Source: Lujinxingiaceae bacterium (GTDB taxonomy: Bacteria; Myxococcota_A; Bradymonadia; Bradymonadales; Bradymonadaceae). From it: a DNA stretch of 64,000 nt. The notes under the pieces are model-generated. The model was not told the DNA's origin. It worked only from the letters and a program-made list of their open reading frames with translations, and did not search any database. Shown here in pieces: positions 46,598 through 54,937 of this stretch. The stretch covers positions 1-64,000 of the forward strand of contig JACCWM010000201.1 of assembly GCA_013697635.1 (NCBI GenBank), in the 5' to 3' direction. The stretch's first letter is position 1, and the number at the start of each line of letters is the position of its first letter. Made by a program: the position numbers and the translations under genes.

Positions 46598-49033
46598 TCA
46601 GCGCAGCGTGCGCGCGCCTTCCTGGGGTTGTGCGAGGTTTTGGATCGAGACAAAGTCCGCCGTGCCGTCCGGGGCGATCAAAAAGTGGCCCTGGGGCAGG
46701 TTGCGCAAGAAGAGCACCTGGCTTGGCAGGGGCGTGCGGCTTTCATAGCGCTCAGCCACGAAGTTGCGCTCGACCTGGAAGCTATAGCTCATGTCGCGTA
46801 CCGGATCGAGCTCGCCCTCGTGGATGCGAAAGTCGAGGTAAGGCCCGGAGAAGCTCTCGCCGGTGCGCGCGCGCGCGTTGGCGCGGCCGAACTCGGCGCC
46901 GGGGCGAGCAACGCACTCGCCGCCGACATTCTCGTGCTCGGGGATCAAGCCGCTGCGCTCGCCGACGACAAGCCATTGATCGACCGGGCGGATGTTGTAG
47001 CGAAGTCCGCGATTAAAGGCTGCGCATGCGCGCGAGGGCAGTTGGTCGACAAAGCCCAGCTCTTCATCTTCGATGACGGCGAGCTCGAGGTACTCGGCGC
47101 TCAGGCCGACGATCTCGTAGGTGAGAAAGTCGGCGCGCGTGGTGTCGTCGCTGACATAGGCCGCGCACGAAGCCGGCACGGCTCCGTCGATCTCGGGGCG
47201 CCCGAGGATCGTGAGGCGATCGCCTGGCTGAACGCCGGCGGCGCACAGATCGATGCCGCCGCCCTGGAAGCGCGCGTCGACGTCTCGGTCGACGACGCCG
47301 CGGTCGATGCGGGCCGTGGCCGGCAAGACGCCCTCATAGGTGACCGTCCAGCTCTCGTCGCGCAGACGAAGGTCGAAGGGCTCGCTTCGCACCCCTTCGC
47401 GCACCGTCGTGGACGTGCCTTCCGGGGGCAAAAGCACGAGCGAGCGTTGCGCGAGCAGCGTTGCGCGCGGGATCTCGGCCAGGCTTGTCGGCACGCTGGC
47501 GCCTTCCTGTAGGCTGGTCGGCTGAGGCAGCACGGGCGATCCACAGCTCAAGGTCGCGGCACCGGTAAGCTCGCTGGCCCGAGCGATCAGGGCCTCCGGC
47601 AGCTGGCAGCTCGCGCGGCCGACGAGGCGGCCGCTGGCAGCGCGCGCATCGCGCGGTGCGAAGGTGGGATTGATCGCGACGCGGGCGTTGGCGTCCACGA
47701 AGAGGCGATGATCGAGCGTGTCGTCGTTGGCCTCAGCGAGCGGAAATTCGGGCACCGTCAAACAGCTTTGCTCCGGGGAGGCGGCGCGCGCGGCGTGATC
47801 GTTGTAGAAGGCGCGCGCCGAGAGCAGCTCGCCTGTGTGCTCGAGCTCGCAGTGGGCGTTCATCGCCTCGACGAAGTAAATCGAGCCGTTGTCGGAGGCG
47901 ACATAGGCGCCATAGGCGTAGCGAATCAGCGAGCGGCCATTGCCAGACCACAGCACATTGCGCGAGACGTCGCCGGTGACGACGATGGGCGAGCGGGTGA
48001 CGCCGGCGCCGAGCAGCGTTGAGAAGGGCATCGCCGGCGGCTCGGTGGCCAGGGCGGCGTCGACGAGCTCGCGGCGCGCGGCGTCGACGAAGAGCACCTG
48101 GTTGTTGGCGCGATCGACGACGTAGACAAACTTACCCAGCGGATCGATGCCGATAGCCGAGAAACCCCAGCTCGGCGCGAGCGGCTCGGCCAGGGCGATA
48201 CGGCCAAGTTCGCAGGGAGCCTGGCTGCAGGCGGCGTCGTCGCCTTCGAGCGCGGCGGTCGTCAAGCCGATGACCGACATCGCGTTGAGATCGGAGTAGA
48301 CGACGTAGGCCACGCTACCATCGGGCGCAACGGCTAAGTCGGCGACCGAAGCGGGCAAATCCAGCGTAGTGGCCTCACCAAGCTCGCTGCAGCCGGCGTC
48401 GGCGCGGTGTGTGCGACGATCGCTGACGTTGGTCGGCTGCTCGCAGCGCATGGCATCGCGAAGCTGCAGGCGTGAGGGGCTGGCGAGCGCGACGACGAGC
48501 TGCTCGACCTGGCCTTCGCTGGCCGAGGCGATCGCCACGCGGCGTGGAATGCCTTCGAGGGGCTGCGCGCTCATGGGGCGAAGCAGCCACAGGTTGAGCG
48601 GCGTGAGCGTGCGGTCGAGCTGGTTGATCACGTAGGCCACGGTGCCGTCGTTGCCGGCCGCGACGCCGACCGGATGGCGCCCCACCGGGATATGGGCGAC
48701 GCCGGGCGTGGTGGAGTCGAGATTGACGAGCTGGGCGCGTCGCCCGGAGAGATCGGCTACGGCGACGTTGTCGGTCTGCTCGTTGACGATCAGGGCGATT
48801 GCCCCTTGTTGTCCGCTCTCGCAGCGCAGCAGCGCGCCGCGGCCGATCGTTGCGAAATCGGCGCTGACCGGGGGCAGGCAAACCTCGCCCTGGGCGACGG
48901 CGATGGCGCGCGGGGCGCGAAGGCTGGCCGGCAGAATCGGTTCGGGTTCGCTGCAGGCCGGCGCGGCCAGGGCAAAGCCAAGAACCAGAGCCGAGAGCGT
49001 GGCGCGGTGGCGCTTGTCGTTTATAAACGTCAT
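46598..49033 (-). CDS. Large YncE-like beta-propeller lipoprotein
   Basis: An 811-residue lipoprotein (signal peptide with lipobox LAAPAC). Seven or more propeller blades of the YncE/surface-layer type can be seen, e.g. VNLDSTTPGVAHIPVGRHPV, GTVAYVINQLDRTLTP, and GKFVYVVDRANNQVLFVDA. A C-terminal part (from about 500) is different and Cys-containing. No catalytic motif. It is next to a second YncE-like lipoprotein on the same strand, with 40 bases between, so they are probably co-transcribed. Its role is probably binding in the envelope. Confidence 0.75.
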   Translation of the reverse strand: MTFINDKRHRATLSALVLGFALAAPACSEPEPILPASLRAPRAIAVAQGEVCLPPVSADFATIGRGALLRCESGQQGAIALIVNEQTDNVAVADLSGRRAQLVNLDSTTPGVAHIPVGRHPVGVAAGNDGTVAYVINQLDRTLTPLNLWLLRPMSAQPLEGIPRRVAIASASEGQVEQLVVALASPSRLQLRDAMRCEQPTNVSDRRTHRADAGCSELGEATTLDLPASVADLAVAPDGSVAYVVYSDLNAMSVIGLTTAALEGDDAACSQAPCELGRIALAEPLAPSWGFSAIGIDPLGKFVYVVDRANNQVLFVDAARRELVDAALATEPPAMPFSTLLGAGVTRSPIVVTGDVSRNVLWSGNGRSLIRYAYGAYVASDNGSIYFVEAMNAHCELEHTGELLSARAFYNDHAARAASPEQSCLTVPEFPLAEANDDTLDHRLFVDANARVAINPTFAPRDARAASGRLVGRASCQLPEALIARASELTGAATLSCGSPVLPQPTSLQEGASVPTSLAEIPRATLLAQRSLVLLPPEGTSTTVREGVRSEPFDLRLRDESWTVTYEGVLPATARIDRGVVDRDVDARFQGGGIDLCAAGVQPGDRLTILGRPEIDGAVPASCAAYVSDDTTRADFLTYEIVGLSAEYLELAVIEDEELGFVDQLPSRACAAFNRGLRYNIRPVDQWLVVGERSGLIPEHENVGGECVARPGAEFGRANARARTGESFSGPYLDFRIHEGELDPVRDMSYSFQVERNFVAERYESRTPLPSQVLFLRNLPQGHFLIAPDGTADFVSIQNLAQPQEGARTLR

Positions 49034-49073: not shown

Positions 49074-50354
49074 TCAGCGAATCTTCGCGATGACCTGATG
49101 GTATGTGGGGCTGGCCGGGTCGAGATCGATCACGGCGACCGCGCCGCAACCGTTCTCCACATCGTCGCAGCGCAACGCGGCGCTGCCCGTATCGTTGAAC
49201 AAGGAGACGTAGCCCCGGCAGCTATCGCCGGGGTAGCGGCAACGATCAGGGCTCTGGTCGATCACGAGCTGGTAAGGGCTGCTGCCCACAGCGATCGTAT
49301 CGACGAGCACGCCGGCGCGCGGATCGATGACCTCGATGATCCCGTCGTTGTAGCCTGTGACGTAGACGAGCTCGTCGCCGTTGGCGTCGCTGTGAACGAC
49401 CACATCCGAGGGGCGCCCGCCAAGCGAGATGGTCGATACGATCTCATGGCGTGCGTTGTTGGGGTCGATCGCGATCACGTGCAAGGTGTTCGGTCGGCGC
49501 GTGGCGACGTAGAGGCGGCGGCCGGACTGGCCAAACGCCAGTCCACGTGCGTCGACGGCCTCGATGCCGTTGCTCAATGCGATCGCGCCGCGTCGCACGA
49601 TCGCCTCGACCTGGCCGGCCGGGTTGACGTAGGGCTGAAAGTACACGACCTGATTGGTCGAGCGCCCGGCGACATAGAAGTCCAGGCTGCCCGGGCGCAC
49701 GGCGATCTGATTGCCACCGGCGACAAGCGCGGCGCTTCGCATCGAAGCGGCGCCGATCTCACCGTTGGGAAAGGCGATCGTCGTGACCTGAGAGCCGCGC
49801 AAGTGGCTGACGTTGACCAGATCGATCAGCGTCTGATCGCCGTTGGCTTCGGTGCGCGTGATCGTTGCAACCTCGAGGCCGAAGGGATCCGATCCCAGCA
49901 CCGCTCCGCCTTGTACGTCAGGAACACGGCCCACACGGCAGGTATCCGGGTCCGAGGAGCGAACGCCGCCAGGCGTCAGACATGAGAGCGCCTGGCCCTG
50001 GCCGGCGACATCGAGCACGATGACCTCGTTGGCGTGGCGCGTGGTCACGTAGGCGCGCGTGGCATCGCGGTTGAGCTTGATGTAGCCGCCAAACGACGGG
50101 ATGTAGGGCGTCACCGCAGGCAAGATTTGCAGCGTCTCGGTGTCGATCACGGACACCGTGCCCCCGACCTCTTCTCGGTGGCTCATGTCGAAGTTGCTGT
50201 TGACCACGTACAAAAACCGCCCATCGGGATGCAGCGCAAGGCCGATCGGGTAGTTGAGGCGGTCACGCGGCGGGAGCGTGCCCTTGTATTGATCCGAGCA
50301 TCCAAGGGCGCTGAACAGCCCGAAGAGCACGGCGATGGTTACCCAGGATTTCAT
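49074..50354 (-). CDS. YncE-like beta-propeller lipoprotein
   Basis: A 426-residue lipoprotein (helix, lipobox FSALGC). Blades include PPRDRLNYPIGLALHPDGRF, VVNSNFDMSHREEVGG, RATRAYVTTRHANEVIVLDV, and GRRLYVATRRPNTLHVIAID and similar. ATG 50354 is chosen because it starts a signal peptide; the frame is open to 50915 but without signal. It diverges from the alpha-2-macroglobulin gene and is upstream of the 811-residue paralogue. Confidence 0.8.
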   Translation of the reverse strand: MKSWVTIAVLFGLFSALGCSDQYKGTLPPRDRLNYPIGLALHPDGRFLYVVNSNFDMSHREEVGGTVSVIDTETLQILPAVTPYIPSFGGYIKLNRDATRAYVTTRHANEVIVLDVAGQGQALSCLTPGGVRSSDPDTCRVGRVPDVQGGAVLGSDPFGLEVATITRTEANGDQTLIDLVNVSHLRGSQVTTIAFPNGEIGAASMRSAALVAGGNQIAVRPGSLDFYVAGRSTNQVVYFQPYVNPAGQVEAIVRRGAIALSNGIEAVDARGLAFGQSGRRLYVATRRPNTLHVIAIDPNNARHEIVSTISLGGRPSDVVVHSDANGDELVYVTGYNDGIIEVIDPRAGVLVDTIAVGSSPYQLVIDQSPDRCRYPGDSCRGYVSLFNDTGSAALRCDDVENGCGAVAVIDLDPASPTYHQVIAKIR

Positions 50355-50569
50355 TGGTTTATGGCTTCCGTTGGGGAGGTAGAGTCGGCGGTTTTGACCT
50401 CGACCCATAGAAGGTGCAAGGCGCAAAGGACTTAACACCGTTGCACAGGGTTGCGCAAGCGGCGCCGGGAGCGCCGGGAGAGTCCGGCTCATGGAACTTT
50501 CGTGTTGAGTGCGCCTCCGATATAGGTTGAAGAGTAAATTGGCGAGCTCACGACGAGATGAGGGCAGAG

Positions 50570-53500
50570 ATGGGTTTGATGCTGTGGAATCGGTGGGTCG
50601 TGGTCGTGGGTTGCGCGGCGCTTGTGGCAGGGTGTACTGCGCGCGGTGGTGGCAGGGTGGTCGCGCAGCTCGAGGGTGGGGGCGTCGCAAAAGAGCATGC
50701 CGAGGCGGCCGCTGGCGCGAAGTCGGGCCTGGGGCCGCAGGGGCCCGACATTTTGGTGGGCCTGGCCAGCGCGGGGCGTGTGCGCCCGCATCTGGAGCGG
50801 GTGCCGGCGGCCGAAGAGGGGCTGCTGGTGGTGATCGATACGCCCTACGAGATCTTCGAGGAGCAGGGAACCTACATCCACGTGGGCGCGTGGCAGACCG
50901 ACGGGGCGCCCGCAATCGAGGCGAGCGTCTATATCGGGGAGAGCGAGGTGGGGCGCACCAATGCCTTTGGCAGTCTGGTGTTTTTGTATCCGCCCAAGGG
51001 TGCTGACGCCTCGATTTTGGGGCGCCACGAGATCACGGTGATCGACAAGAACAACCCGTACCTGCAAGGCCAGGTGGCGTTCTCGCCCTATATGCGCACG
51101 GCGAGCTTTGCCAGCGATCATGTGTACGTCTACACCGATCGGGGCATTTATCGGCCCGGTGAGTCCGTGCGGGTGCGCGCGATTGGCTGGCATCTGCGCG
51201 AAGACTACGGGCCGCTGCTCGATGCGACGATCGATTTCGTGCTCAAGGACGATCGCGGCGAGGTGGTCGCCGGGGGCCAGCGTGTCACCGACGAATTCGG
51301 TGTGACGTCGATCGATCTCAAGCTCGCGCGTACAGTGCGCGAGGGTCTGTACACGCTGGAGGTTGGCTACGAGCAGGAGCGCCAGACGGCGCGCATCCAG
51401 GTCAAGGAGTTCAAGACGCCGGCGATCAGCATCGAGCACACGCTGGGGCGCTTTTTTCCGAGCTATTTGAAGGAGTTGGGCTTTGATGTGACGCTCAAGC
51501 CGGGGCCGGGCGGGGCGATCGAGGGGGCACGTGTGTCGGCGTCGGCCAAGATCGGGGGCACCGAGCGCGAGAGTTTGTCGCTCGCGGTCAAAGGCCAGGG
51601 GCCGCACCGGCTGGTGTTTAGCGAGGCACAGATTACAAAGCTCAAGGACCTGCTTGGCGAAGGCCAGTTCTTGACGATGACGCTCTCGGTCGAGGATTCG
51701 GCCGGTCGGCGCGACAGCCTGGACCGGGAGATGCGCTTTACGAGCAACCCGTTTACGGCCGTGCTCGAGACCGACAAGGCGCAGTATACGACGGGCGATG
51801 CAGTGCAGATCATGGCCAAGCTCGGCGACCTCGATGGGGCGCCGGTGCGCACCAAAGATCTCGAGTTGCGCGTGGGCAAGGCCAAATTCAAGGCGCAGAC
51901 CAACGCCTCGGGTGTGGCGCGCTTTGCTTTGGTGATGCCGGCCGCGTCCGCACAGGTTTCGCTGCACGCCGAAGGCGTCAAGCAGGCCTTGGCCGAGAGC
52001 ACGCTCAACTGGGTGAAGCCGCGCGAGATGAGCTCGCACATCGCCGAGCCAGTGATCAAGGAGCGCGCCTTTGCCAGCGTCGTCGTCTATTTTCCAACCG
52101 AGGTCGAGCCGATCTCGCCGGTGGTGCACATGGACGTGGTCGACACCTCCGGGGCGATCGTCAACGCCGTCTTGCTGCACATCGAGAGGGTCGACGGCAA
52201 GTTTGTGGCCCGCGGGCAGTTCGAGGCGCCGTCGTGGGGTTCGATGCTGCTGACCTTCTTTGCGCTGGGCCGAGTCCGGGGCAGCGTCGATCCGGGCGAC
52301 GGCTCGCCGGCCCATCATCGCATCGGGCTGTTGACCGAAGGCCAAAACCTCGTCGTCGAGCCAAACAAAACGCTGACGATTACCCTCGGTGAGCTGCCCG
52401 CGAGCGCGCGGCCGGGCCAGGCGCTGGCCTTCAACGCCGCGATCACCAATCCGCGTGGCGAGCCGGTGCGGGCTTCCGTGGGCGCGGCGATCGTCGATGG
52501 GCGCATCATCGCGCTCAAAGATCCGCTCGAGGTGACGCCGATGGACCAGTTCTACCACCCGGCGCTTCGCACGATGAGCACCACGGGCGCGCAGATATTG
52601 ACCTGGCCGGTGGTCAGCCGCAACTGGGGCGCGGAGATGGACGACATCGCCTTGCCGCCGTTTCCATTTCACGAGGGCGGGCCGCTGGTCGCGGGCTATT
52701 ACGAAAGTGGCGCGAGCTACGGCATAGGTTCGATGGGCGCCGCCGAAATGAGCGCCGAAGTTGGCGGCCTCACCATGAAAGGATCGGGCGCAGGCGGTGG
52801 AGGCGTCGGCCAGAGTGCCGAGAGGACACGCCAGGGGCGGGGGGAGGAGCCTGCTCCGGTCACGATCACGGTGCGCACGCGCTTTGACGAGACCTCGCTG
52901 TGGGCGCCGAATCTGCGCGCAGACGGCACGGTCGAGATCAAGGCGACGCTTCCAGACAGCATCTCCGAGCAAGAGATCATCTTGATCGCGAGCGACGCAG
53001 CAGGCGGCGTGGGCGTGCTGCGCCGACGCATCGAGGTGACGACGCCGCTTTACGCGCACGCGGACTTTCCCAGGGTGTTGCGCGTCGGTGAGAGCGTCGA
53101 TGTCAACGTGTTCGTCGAGAACCGCAGCGGCGCAAGCCAGAAGCTGCTTGCTCAGGCCCATGGCGACGGGTTGCAGATCGATCAGGAGGAGCGCGCGCTG
53201 GTGATCGGCTCGGGGGCGGTGGCGCACGAAGTTTATACGGTGCGCGCGGACAAAGCCGGCACGGTGCGCTACGCCTTCAAGGTGAGCAATGGCGCGCTCG
53301 AAGATCTCGTCGAGGGCAGCGTGCGCGTGGTCCCAGCGGGCGCGCCGATGCTCGAGACGGTCGCAGGCCAGGCCAGCGAGGACAAGCCCTTTGTGGCGAG
53401 CTGGGTGATTGGCGAGCAGACCGCGGGCAACGACGCGTATCTCAACGTCGCCTTTCCCAGCATCACTGCGGCCTTTGTCGGCATCCAGGCTTTTGGCGCG

Positions 53501-54937
53501 ACGCTGCGTGATACGCCGCTGTCGATGGCCTCGGATCTGGTCTCGGCAGCGCTGTTGTTGCAGTACGCGCAGCGCTTCGAGGTGCGCTCAAAAGAGATCG
53601 AGGCGCTTCGCGAGCGCGTGATGTCGGCCACCTCGGGCTTGCAATTTGCTCAGCACAAAGACGGCGCGTTTGCCTTCTGGCGAAATGGCGCGACCAGCCC
53701 CTATGTGACGGCCTGGGCGCTCGAGGCGATGTTGGAGGTGGTCAAGCTGGACGTGCCCGTCGAGCCCCACGCCATAGAGCGCGCGGCCGACTGGCTTGCA
53801 CGAAACATCGCCGGCCATGCCTTGATCAGCGTCGACGACATCGCCTTTTGGCAAGGCGACAGCGCGGCGGTTCGCCTGGGTTTGACTGCGCAGGTCTTCG
53901 ACGTGCTCACGCGCGTGCCCGAGGAGCTTCGCACCTCGCATGTCCAGGAGGCGATCCGAGAGCTTGCGGCCTTCTACAAAGATTATCTGCTCACCCAGAG
54001 CAGCCCCGAGCCGCTGACGGCCGGCCACGCGCTGATGGGACTCGGGCGCCTGGGGCTGATCGACGCCGAGCAGACCCAGCTGATCGTGCAAAACATGGTG
54101 GAGCGTCGCGACCGCGGCCACTGGGAGCCGAGCTGGTTTCACGCTTACGGCGGCCGTATCGAGGCCACCGTGGCCGTGGTCGGTGCCCTGCACCAGATCA
54201 ATCCGAACGGCTTTCATGCCGAGAAGCGCGACGCGCTCAACTACATCCTCTCGACGCGCGATGCCTGGGGCAGCTGGCACAACGAGCGCGGTACGGCGGC
54301 CGCCATTCGCGCGCTGCTGCTCGTCGGCCAGCCCGGTGAGCAGGCCCGAGCGACGGTGACGGTGACCCTCGACGGCCACGTGATCAAGCAGGTCGAGCTC
54401 GACCCGGCCGATCCCTTCGGCTCGACGATCGCGCTCAGCCACCTCGATCTGGGCCAGAACCTGAGCGCGGGCCGCCACGAGGTCGAGGTGAAATACGACG
54501 GCAAGCTCTCCCCATCCGTGGTGCTGGCCAGCCGCACCTGGGTTGTGCCCGCCCCCGCCAAAGCCAGATCGGCCGGTTTTGGCCTTTGGCTCGAGGGTCC
54601 CAAGACAGTGCGCTCCGGTGAGCCCGTCGATCTGACGGTGCGCTTTGCCAATCACCGCTCCCGCGGCCAGGCCAGCGTGCTGATCACGCCCAGCGGCCTG
54701 CTCGAGGTGGACTTCGCGCGCCTCGAAGCGCTTGTGCTCGTCGGCGAGGTGCTGGCGAGTTACCGGGTGAGCGATCGCGGCCTGGAGCTCGACATTCGCC
54801 CGGGCTTTGACGCGGCCGAGTTCGTCGTGCCGTTTCAGGCCGTGCGAAGTGGTCGGGCGGCGCTGCCGGCTGTGGTTTTTCGCGGGAGCGACTTGGTCCG
54901 CACAGCCGGCGGTAAGGAGCTGGTCGTCAGTCGCTAA
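50570..54937 (+). CDS. Alpha-2-macroglobulin family lipoprotein lacking the thioester
   Basis: A 1455-residue lipoprotein (lipobox LVAGC) of the bacterial alpha-2-macroglobulin family. MG domains with YTDRGIYRPGESVRV (about 187-201) and FETSLWAPNLRADGTVEIKA-like A2M entry (RFDETSLWAPNLRADG) are clear, as is the helical TED region (AWALEAMLEVVK, GHALMGLGRLG, GRIEATVAVVGAL). The usual thioester motif CxEQ is missing: the aligned stretch is FGATLRDTPLS. The only Cys residues are the two in the signal/lipobox. A Gly/Ser-rich, protease-sensitive-looking segment (about 707-765) stands where a bait region is expected. It probably traps or protects by binding without a covalent bond. Start is ATG 50570 with AGGG; ATG 50558 is also possible. 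Confidence 0.85.
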   Translation: MGLMLWNRWVVVVGCAALVAGCTARGGGRVVAQLEGGGVAKEHAEAAAGAKSGLGPQGPDILVGLASAGRVRPHLERVPAAEEGLLVVIDTPYEIFEEQGTYIHVGAWQTDGAPAIEASVYIGESEVGRTNAFGSLVFLYPPKGADASILGRHEITVIDKNNPYLQGQVAFSPYMRTASFASDHVYVYTDRGIYRPGESVRVRAIGWHLREDYGPLLDATIDFVLKDDRGEVVAGGQRVTDEFGVTSIDLKLARTVREGLYTLEVGYEQERQTARIQVKEFKTPAISIEHTLGRFFPSYLKELGFDVTLKPGPGGAIEGARVSASAKIGGTERESLSLAVKGQGPHRLVFSEAQITKLKDLLGEGQFLTMTLSVEDSAGRRDSLDREMRFTSNPFTAVLETDKAQYTTGDAVQIMAKLGDLDGAPVRTKDLELRVGKAKFKAQTNASGVARFALVMPAASAQVSLHAEGVKQALAESTLNWVKPREMSSHIAEPVIKERAFASVVVYFPTEVEPISPVVHMDVVDTSGAIVNAVLLHIERVDGKFVARGQFEAPSWGSMLLTFFALGRVRGSVDPGDGSPAHHRIGLLTEGQNLVVEPNKTLTITLGELPASARPGQALAFNAAITNPRGEPVRASVGAAIVDGRIIALKDPLEVTPMDQFYHPALRTMSTTGAQILTWPVVSRNWGAEMDDIALPPFPFHEGGPLVAGYYESGASYGIGSMGAAEMSAEVGGLTMKGSGAGGGGVGQSAERTRQGRGEEPAPVTITVRTRFDETSLWAPNLRADGTVEIKATLPDSISEQEIILIASDAAGGVGVLRRRIEVTTPLYAHADFPRVLRVGESVDVNVFVENRSGASQKLLAQAHGDGLQIDQEERALVIGSGAVAHEVYTVRADKAGTVRYAFKVSNGALEDLVEGSVRVVPAGAPMLETVAGQASEDKPFVASWVIGEQTAGNDAYLNVAFPSITAAFVGIQAFGATLRDTPLSMASDLVSAALLLQYAQRFEVRSKEIEALRERVMSATSGLQFAQHKDGAFAFWRNGATSPYVTAWALEAMLEVVKLDVPVEPHAIERAADWLARNIAGHALISVDDIAFWQGDSAAVRLGLTAQVFDVLTRVPEELRTSHVQEAIRELAAFYKDYLLTQSSPEPLTAGHALMGLGRLGLIDAEQTQLIVQNMVERRDRGHWEPSWFHAYGGRIEATVAVVGALHQINPNGFHAEKRDALNYILSTRDAWGSWHNERGTAAAIRALLLVGQPGEQARATVTVTLDGHVIKQVELDPADPFGSTIALSHLDLGQNLSAGRHEVEVKYDGKLSPSVVLASRTWVVPAPAKARSAGFGLWLEGPKTVRSGEPVDLTVRFANHRSRGQASVLITPSGLLEVDFARLEALVLVGEVLASYRVSDRGLELDIRPGFDAAEFVVPFQAVRSGRAALPAVVFRGSDLVRTAGGKELVVSR

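Follow-up and report, generated by a model that had tools for sequence, protein, structure and literature searches.

A thioester-free alpha-2-macroglobulin of a Lujinxingiaceae bacterium and its relatives among Myxococcota

What might an alpha-2-macroglobulin (A2M) still do when the thioester of the covalent protease trap is gone? The question is raised by a gene at positions 50570 to 54937 of the forward strand of contig JACCWM010000201.1 from a Lujinxingiaceae bacterium, within a window of 64,000 nucleotides (the whole stretch of DNA analysed here). The thioester motif CxEQ is absent from the entire 1455-residue chain that this gene encodes. With somewhat less than even confidence, we read the product as a lipid-anchored, secreted A2M of an old thioester-free clade, which may work as a non-covalent snap protein triggered by cleavage.

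The protein is a member of the A2M superfamily. Pfam finds the domains MG2 (E = 8e-20) and A2M (E = 8.3e-14), each above its curated cut-off, and phmmer matches in the PDB lead to TEP1 (E = 7e-8), complement C5 (E = 3e-7) and A2M (E = 6e-7), with weak ones to CD109 (E = 0.015) and C3 (E = 0.029). TED_complement (16.9 bits against a cut-off of 22) and MG4 remained below threshold in Pfam, and no NCBIfam family was matched by the protein or by the two orthologues tried. In an alignment with 27 other A2Ms (12 family members, 8 other relatives, 6 CxEQ paralogues of the same genome and E. coli YfhM), the CLEQ of YfhM falls on T982-P983-L984-S985 within FGATLRDTPLS (residues 975-985), the very replacement proposed in a preliminary description made from the DNA letters. 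That description looked to YfhM-type homologues for comparison; these did locate the lost site, but YfhM alone is too narrow a reference, as the family hidden Markov model (HMM) scores YfaS higher.

Only two cysteines occur in the whole chain, Cys15 in the signal peptide and Cys22 in V19-A20-G21-C22, which we take to be a lipobox. The mature chain would therefore be free of cysteine except for the predicted lipid-anchor Cys22; the earlier statement that no cysteine lies outside the lipobox holds for this mature form and had overlooked Cys15. A thioester hidden elsewhere in the chain was considered and ruled out, as there is no CxEQ and the lipid anchor is the sole cysteine of the mature chain. 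A thioester-based covalent trap is excluded, and to this extent the preliminary description was right in calling a covalent mechanism impossible. A low cysteine count is usual among the A2Ms compared here: over the final 1250 residues, the seven CxEQ paralogues of the same genome have three cysteines each, save one with four, while 5 of 11 family members counted have none. The cysteines of two relatives, L066 (969 and 1219) and L067 (54, 543, 995 and 1245), are likewise not part of any CxEQ.

The fold of the thioester domain is predicted to be kept, with the reactive site alone gone, because the 12-helix toroid at residues 966-1252 of an AlphaFold2 (AF2) model aligns with C3d-type domains (C3dg 5nbq_B: Z = 26.3, root-mean-square deviation 3.3, 277 residues aligned for the predicted model). 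The structure prediction recommended in the preliminary description has thus yielded a C3d-like toroid. Both this model, which covers residues 590-1455 (mean predicted local distance difference test score, pLDDT, 69.6; predicted template modelling score, pTM, 0.44), and a model of the N-terminal part (mean pLDDT 65.1, pTM 0.38), which matches the beta chains of C5 and C3, were built from six-sequence alignments and are modest, and the mutual placing of their domains is not trusted. Values of pLDDT below 50 are found at 648-773 and at 964-979, the latter beside the former thioester.

Relatives at E <= 1e-30 were found in 16 of 377 Myxococcota genomes and in 6 of the 57 genomes of the same class, with the own genome counted in both, and a contig search gave five loci, among which L066 and L067 lie outside those Myxococcota genomes. 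The thioester loss is old and clade-wide: CxEQ is absent from all 18 family members that reach the site (the protein itself, 15 others, L082 and L086), and the 13 family rows of a 45-row tree come together on one branch (100/100). Three of the 18 (L093, L094 and L095) have a toroid so diverged that the site aligns poorly; they failed the region filter and are not in the tree, from which L015, L019 and L027 were also dropped as duplicates of L060, L061 and L062. Three further relatives (L087, L089 and L091) end short of the site. Placing all 17 thioester-free rows of the tree in a single clade was rejected (approximately unbiased test, p-AU = 7.5e-59), and at least three thioester changes are forced by well-supported branches; the A2Ms compared thus show more than one change of the thioester.

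Since the reactive motif is lost, the gene could in principle be a decaying or non-functional copy, an explanation that is largely refuted and that we hold to be very improbable. The frame is open over 1455 codons, and the closest relative, in genome G024, is 55% identical in the N-terminal half and 49% in the C-terminal half, followed by relatives in G006 and G009. Identity to the G024 orthologue at codon positions 1, 2 and 3 is 61.7, 69.7 and 47.9% (1432 codons); third positions are thus the most diverged, as expected under purifying selection. Moreover, long frames stay open in the family although all 13 tree rows lack the motif. The gene is conserved across genera, and lipid anchoring does not seem to be constant among its relatives: in frames untrimmed to their starts, a lipobox-like motif stands near the start in some (L048, L088 and L090 among those listed) and not in others such as L066 and L067.

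Two other cases of A2Ms without the motif were met in the survey. In genome G008, two adjoining copies (L062:5854-10677 and L062:2-5698, both on the minus strand) are sisters in the tree (98/88), and one reads CTEQ where the other reads FSES, as if the thioester had recently been lost next to an intact copy. The A2Ms L060:5270-10954 (minus strand; G032) and L061:5870-11614 (minus strand; G026) lack CxEQ and have about four transmembrane-like (TM-like) segments before MG7; they fall outside the clade of the protein described here.

A motif such as RTRFDETSLW stands after the bait in A2Ms, and ahead of it the protein carries a linker (residues 695-765) at the bait position. The preliminary description had recognized a glycine-rich, bait-like segment here, which is borne out by the position and by 17 glycines among the 60 residues of 704-763 (28%, against 10.0% for the whole chain). 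As a family constant, however, the glycine richness does not stand: among 15 members the linker is 53 to 159 residues long and has 10 to 28% glycine, some linkers being rich in lysine. The highest conservation of the chain (0.67) is found directly before the linker. Toward its end, 11 of the 15 members have an R-x(0-2)-R pair within the last 20 residues, where 1.9 would be expected by shuffling and none of 5000 shuffles came up to 11; the pattern was picked after viewing the sequences, and relatedness was left uncorrected. Arginine followed by arginine or glycine at the linker end is likewise found in 11 of 15 (3.3 in shuffles; 0 of 3000 reach it), and RG is present in 8 of the 15 members (a count reached by 1 of 3000 shuffles).

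At a place like the arginine end of the linker, E. coli YfhM has K955-R956-G957-G958...N963. In the structure of elastase-cut YfhM, the cleaved bait touches the C-terminal MG domain through R956, G958 and N963 (PMC4498604). Judging from position and composition rather than from an alignment of the loop, the arginine end may be a kept activation element. The post-bait motif was found by regular expression in 2 of 16 other A2Ms. Glycine richness is no bar to a bait role, because human A2M with its bait wholly swapped for a Gly-Ser sequence stayed functional (PMC8267569).

On the reading that we tentatively favour, a protease would cut the exposed, flexible linker between the halves of MG6, the freed bait end would re-dock, the toroid and the C-terminal MG domain would shift, and, at the cell surface or in the periplasm, the protease would be retained or screened off without a covalent bond. 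The preliminary description implied that a bait without a thioester is an oddity, but it is of a known kind: the type II proteins MagD and YfaS have a bait region though no CxEQ (PMC5764988). Because MagD is reported there to hold tobacco etch virus (TEV) protease non-covalently, the absence of a thioester need not mean the absence of a trap. Further support for the snap reading comes from the predicted C3d-like toroid, from the codon-position pattern, which fits purifying selection, and from C5 and chicken ovostatin, for which a shape change on cleavage is described despite the missing thioester (PMC8267569). If a trap without thioester and without partners were confirmed, it would be a simple system for asking whether the shape change of an A2M inhibits a protease by itself. 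Published work points both ways here, since trapping was claimed for MagD, whereas non-covalent retention on A2ML1 was considered non-specific.

Several points weigh against this snap mechanism. Monomeric A2ML1 and rat A1I3 require covalent conjugation, and the non-covalent retention of TEV protease on cleaved A2ML1 was judged non-specific (both PMC9156758), which weakens the MagD precedent unless oligomers or complexes are formed; a Salmonella A2M with an inactivated thioester failed to trap its protease (PMC5764988). The linker may also be a poor bait, since the Gly-Ser bait of human A2M was cut by none of the proteases tested (PMC8267569) and the 71 residues here hold four Lys/Arg and five aromatic residues. 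The Pfam bait-region domain PF07703 was not matched at E = 0.01. The family follows the Arg-Gly form of YfhM less clearly (8 of 15 members have R-x(0-1)-G, against 4.5 in shuffles, and 121 of 3000 shuffles reach this count). Low pLDDT is no proof of a disordered linker, because it also spans the best-conserved block at 648-694 and comes from a six-sequence alignment. Finally, an all-versus-all BLASTP of neighbouring open reading frames (ORFs) at E = 1e-8, with 30-64 kb of the window and 15 loci as the 16 sources, gave no conserved partner gene among the matches listed.

The main rival explanation is that the protein, like complement C5, is no longer an inhibitor and serves as a scaffold, with the toroid and the MG ring forming a binding or adhesion surface and cleavage of the linker at most exposing a binding site. 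We regard this as possible, though rather doubtful. The motif is missing in every member that reaches the site, seven CxEQ A2Ms are already present in the genome, and C5 offers an animal precedent (PMC8267569). The former thioester site is also weakly kept in the family (0.36 for residues 976-1025) compared with the toroid stretches 1176-1200 (0.60) and 1226-1250 (0.62). Other stretches, however, are equally weak (851-875 and 1126-1175 at 0.35-0.36), and the two well-kept ones are presumably ordinary core motifs of C3-type toroids, so that neither the weak nor the well-kept stretches mark a new function. Also against a scaffold, the linker retains the bait position and the arginine pairs.

Features of the gene are collected in Table 1. 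Upstream of it, a second in-frame ATG lies at 50558, but GAGGG stands five bases before 50570 as read by eye; no promoter or terminator consensus was found near the gene start, where about none was expected. A 912-codon open frame runs antisense to the gene (50489-53227, minus strand) and has BLASTP matches to antisense frames of the relatives; most simply, it is a shadow of the A2M coding frame.

Table 1. Coordinates in the window of the A2M gene and of the parts of its product
Feature	Position	Strand	Basis
Thioester-free A2M-family lipoprotein gene, 1455 residues plus stop	50570..54937	+	Intact ORF; Pfam
Putative signal peptide with lipobox V19-A20-G21-C22	50570..50635	+	Sequence; lipobox by rule
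Codons of Cys15 and Cys22	50612-50614; 50633-50635	+	Sole cysteines of the whole chain
MG2 domain, residues 185-278	51122..51403	+	Pfam
Best-conserved family block, residues 651-700, overlapping the linker start	52520..52669	+	Conservation 0.67 in both 25-residue windows
Bait-position linker, residues 695-765, Gly-rich, Arg pairs toward the C-terminal end	52652..52864	+	pLDDT 22-40 by blocks
Post-bait motif RTRFDETSLW, residues 769-778	52874..52903	+	Sequence comparison
Pfam A2M domain (MG7), residues 775-858	52892..53143	+	Pfam
Predicted helical toroid (former thioester domain), residues 966-1252, 12 predicted helices, C3d-like	53465..54325	+	AF2 model and structural match
Place of the lost thioester, FGATLRDTPLS, residues 975-985	53492..53524	+	Alignment; YfhM CLEQ on 982-985
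Predicted beta domains 3' of the toroid (second half of CUB and C-terminal MG domain), residues 1261-1455	54350..54934	+	Predicted secondary structure; names by analogy

The genes that flank the A2M gene lie on the opposite strand and encode a lactonase-like propeller and a GFO/IDH oxidoreductase. Two propeller-like proteins with Lactonase matches, the first below cut-off, are encoded at 46598-49033 and 49074-50390 (both minus strand) and transcribed away from the A2M gene. Besides the A2M itself and antisense shadow frames, the matches listed in the neighbour comparison comprise shared surroundings of the near relatives L093 and L095 and scattered pairs, among them one of kinase type and one between L049 (a VWA gene) and L050. 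Among 18 chosen neighbour ORFs of relatives scanned with Pfam, 12 had a family and 6 had none, and no family recurred between loci.

PF00207 marks ten places in the genome: the present gene, four in tandem on contig C178, and one each on C19, C120, C173, C105 and C106, with those on C105 and C106 cut by contig ends before the toroid. All seven others that reach the site (the four on C178 and those on C19, C120 and C173; frames of 1899-2105 residues) possess CxEQ. The tandem on C178, at about 65-89 kb (L053 and L054), consists of CxEQ genes of about 6 kb each that are grouped with 100/100 support. Both bMG10 and the bait-region domain were found in the three CxEQ A2Ms of the genome that were scanned and are absent from the present protein at E = 0.01. 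BiPBP_C occurs in the genome at C120 and C173 only, in each case beside an A2M, and these are type I pairs with PbpC.

Some sister A2Ms carry a TM-like hydrophobic run at the bait position, before MG7: L057:9701-12868 and L058:9577-12717 (on C105 and C106 of the same genome), L112, L113, L114, L115, L118 and L119. A hydropathy scan gave six TM-like segments in seven of these eight and five in L118. The run is followed by a linker and then by the post-bait motif in all except L115, where the pattern was unmatched. CxEQ lies downstream in all six that extend past the toroid (frames of 1575-1847 residues; L057 and L058 end with their contigs), and the three scanned with Pfam matched TED_complement (E of about 1e-29 to 1e-32). 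A six-TM insert at the bait position is stranger than the thioester-free protein itself, and a literature search on such A2Ms gave nothing among the matches listed. Two further A2Ms, L116:2-4912 and L117:8-5164 (both plus strand), have DPWGNRYW and DPWGQRWI, respectively, between the bait-region domain and MG7; these segments presumably recall the end of GspG-type pseudopilins, and no pseudopilin-type domain was found in them by Pfam at E = 0.01.

Among known A2Ms, the type I proteins (E. coli YfhM, or ECAM, and Salmonella A2M) share with the present one a lipobox (LAGC in YfhM), MG domains, a bait position with arginine near its end, and a toroid. They differ in having CxEQ, an adjacent PbpC gene and, at the N-terminus, two additional MG domains, the last being a feature of type I bacterial A2Ms (PMC9156758); the matching profile stretch around MG2 starts at residue 385 in YfhM and at 185 here. 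As the protein has none of these three features, membership in type I was rejected. With the type II proteins (P. aeruginosa MagD and E. coli YfaS) it shares the lack of CxEQ, the kept bait position, and the MG and toroid domains. MagD, however, lacks a lipobox and is encoded in magA-F, an operon of six genes (PMC5764988), whereas the present protein has a lipobox, its gene is flanked by genes on the other strand, and no DUF1175 was found.

The protein is not demonstrably of type II, and descent from that type with operon partners lost or never acquired, a question of kinship that is compatible with either mechanism, seems unlikely to us. The family HMM scores YfaS slightly over YfhM (76.5 against 68.9 bits), and a tree joining YfaS to the clade of 13 rows could not be rejected (p-AU = 0.22), a weak placement because YfaS is a single sequence on a very long branch. 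Against such descent, DUF1175 (YfaT) was found neither in the own genome (E = 0.01) nor in any of the 377 Myxococcota genomes (E = 1e-5), while it was detected in the controls, E. coli and Thermotoga. No other Mag/Yfa partner family was seen among the neighbours scanned, the genome-wide search having covered DUF1175 alone.

Animal C5 and chicken ovostatin also combine the A2M fold with the lack of a thioester, and their cleavage is said to change their shape (PMC8267569). C5 is among the matches of both structural models, at 13-15% identity to its chains; the present protein differs in being bacterial and probably lipid-anchored. In the literature search, no thioester-free A2M of Myxococcota appeared among the matches listed. 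It is conceivable, though we doubt it more than we believe it, that the family represents a third bacterial A2M lineage, neither type I nor type II, that is thioester-free, has no operon partners and an animal-like number of MG domains, is scattered through Myxococcota, has kept the bait and an arginine re-docking element, and acts alongside the thioester-bearing A2Ms of the cell as a snap trap that is purely mechanical and forms no covalent bond. As a conserved thioester-free A2M lineage, it adds a variant to a known kind and breaks no known rules.

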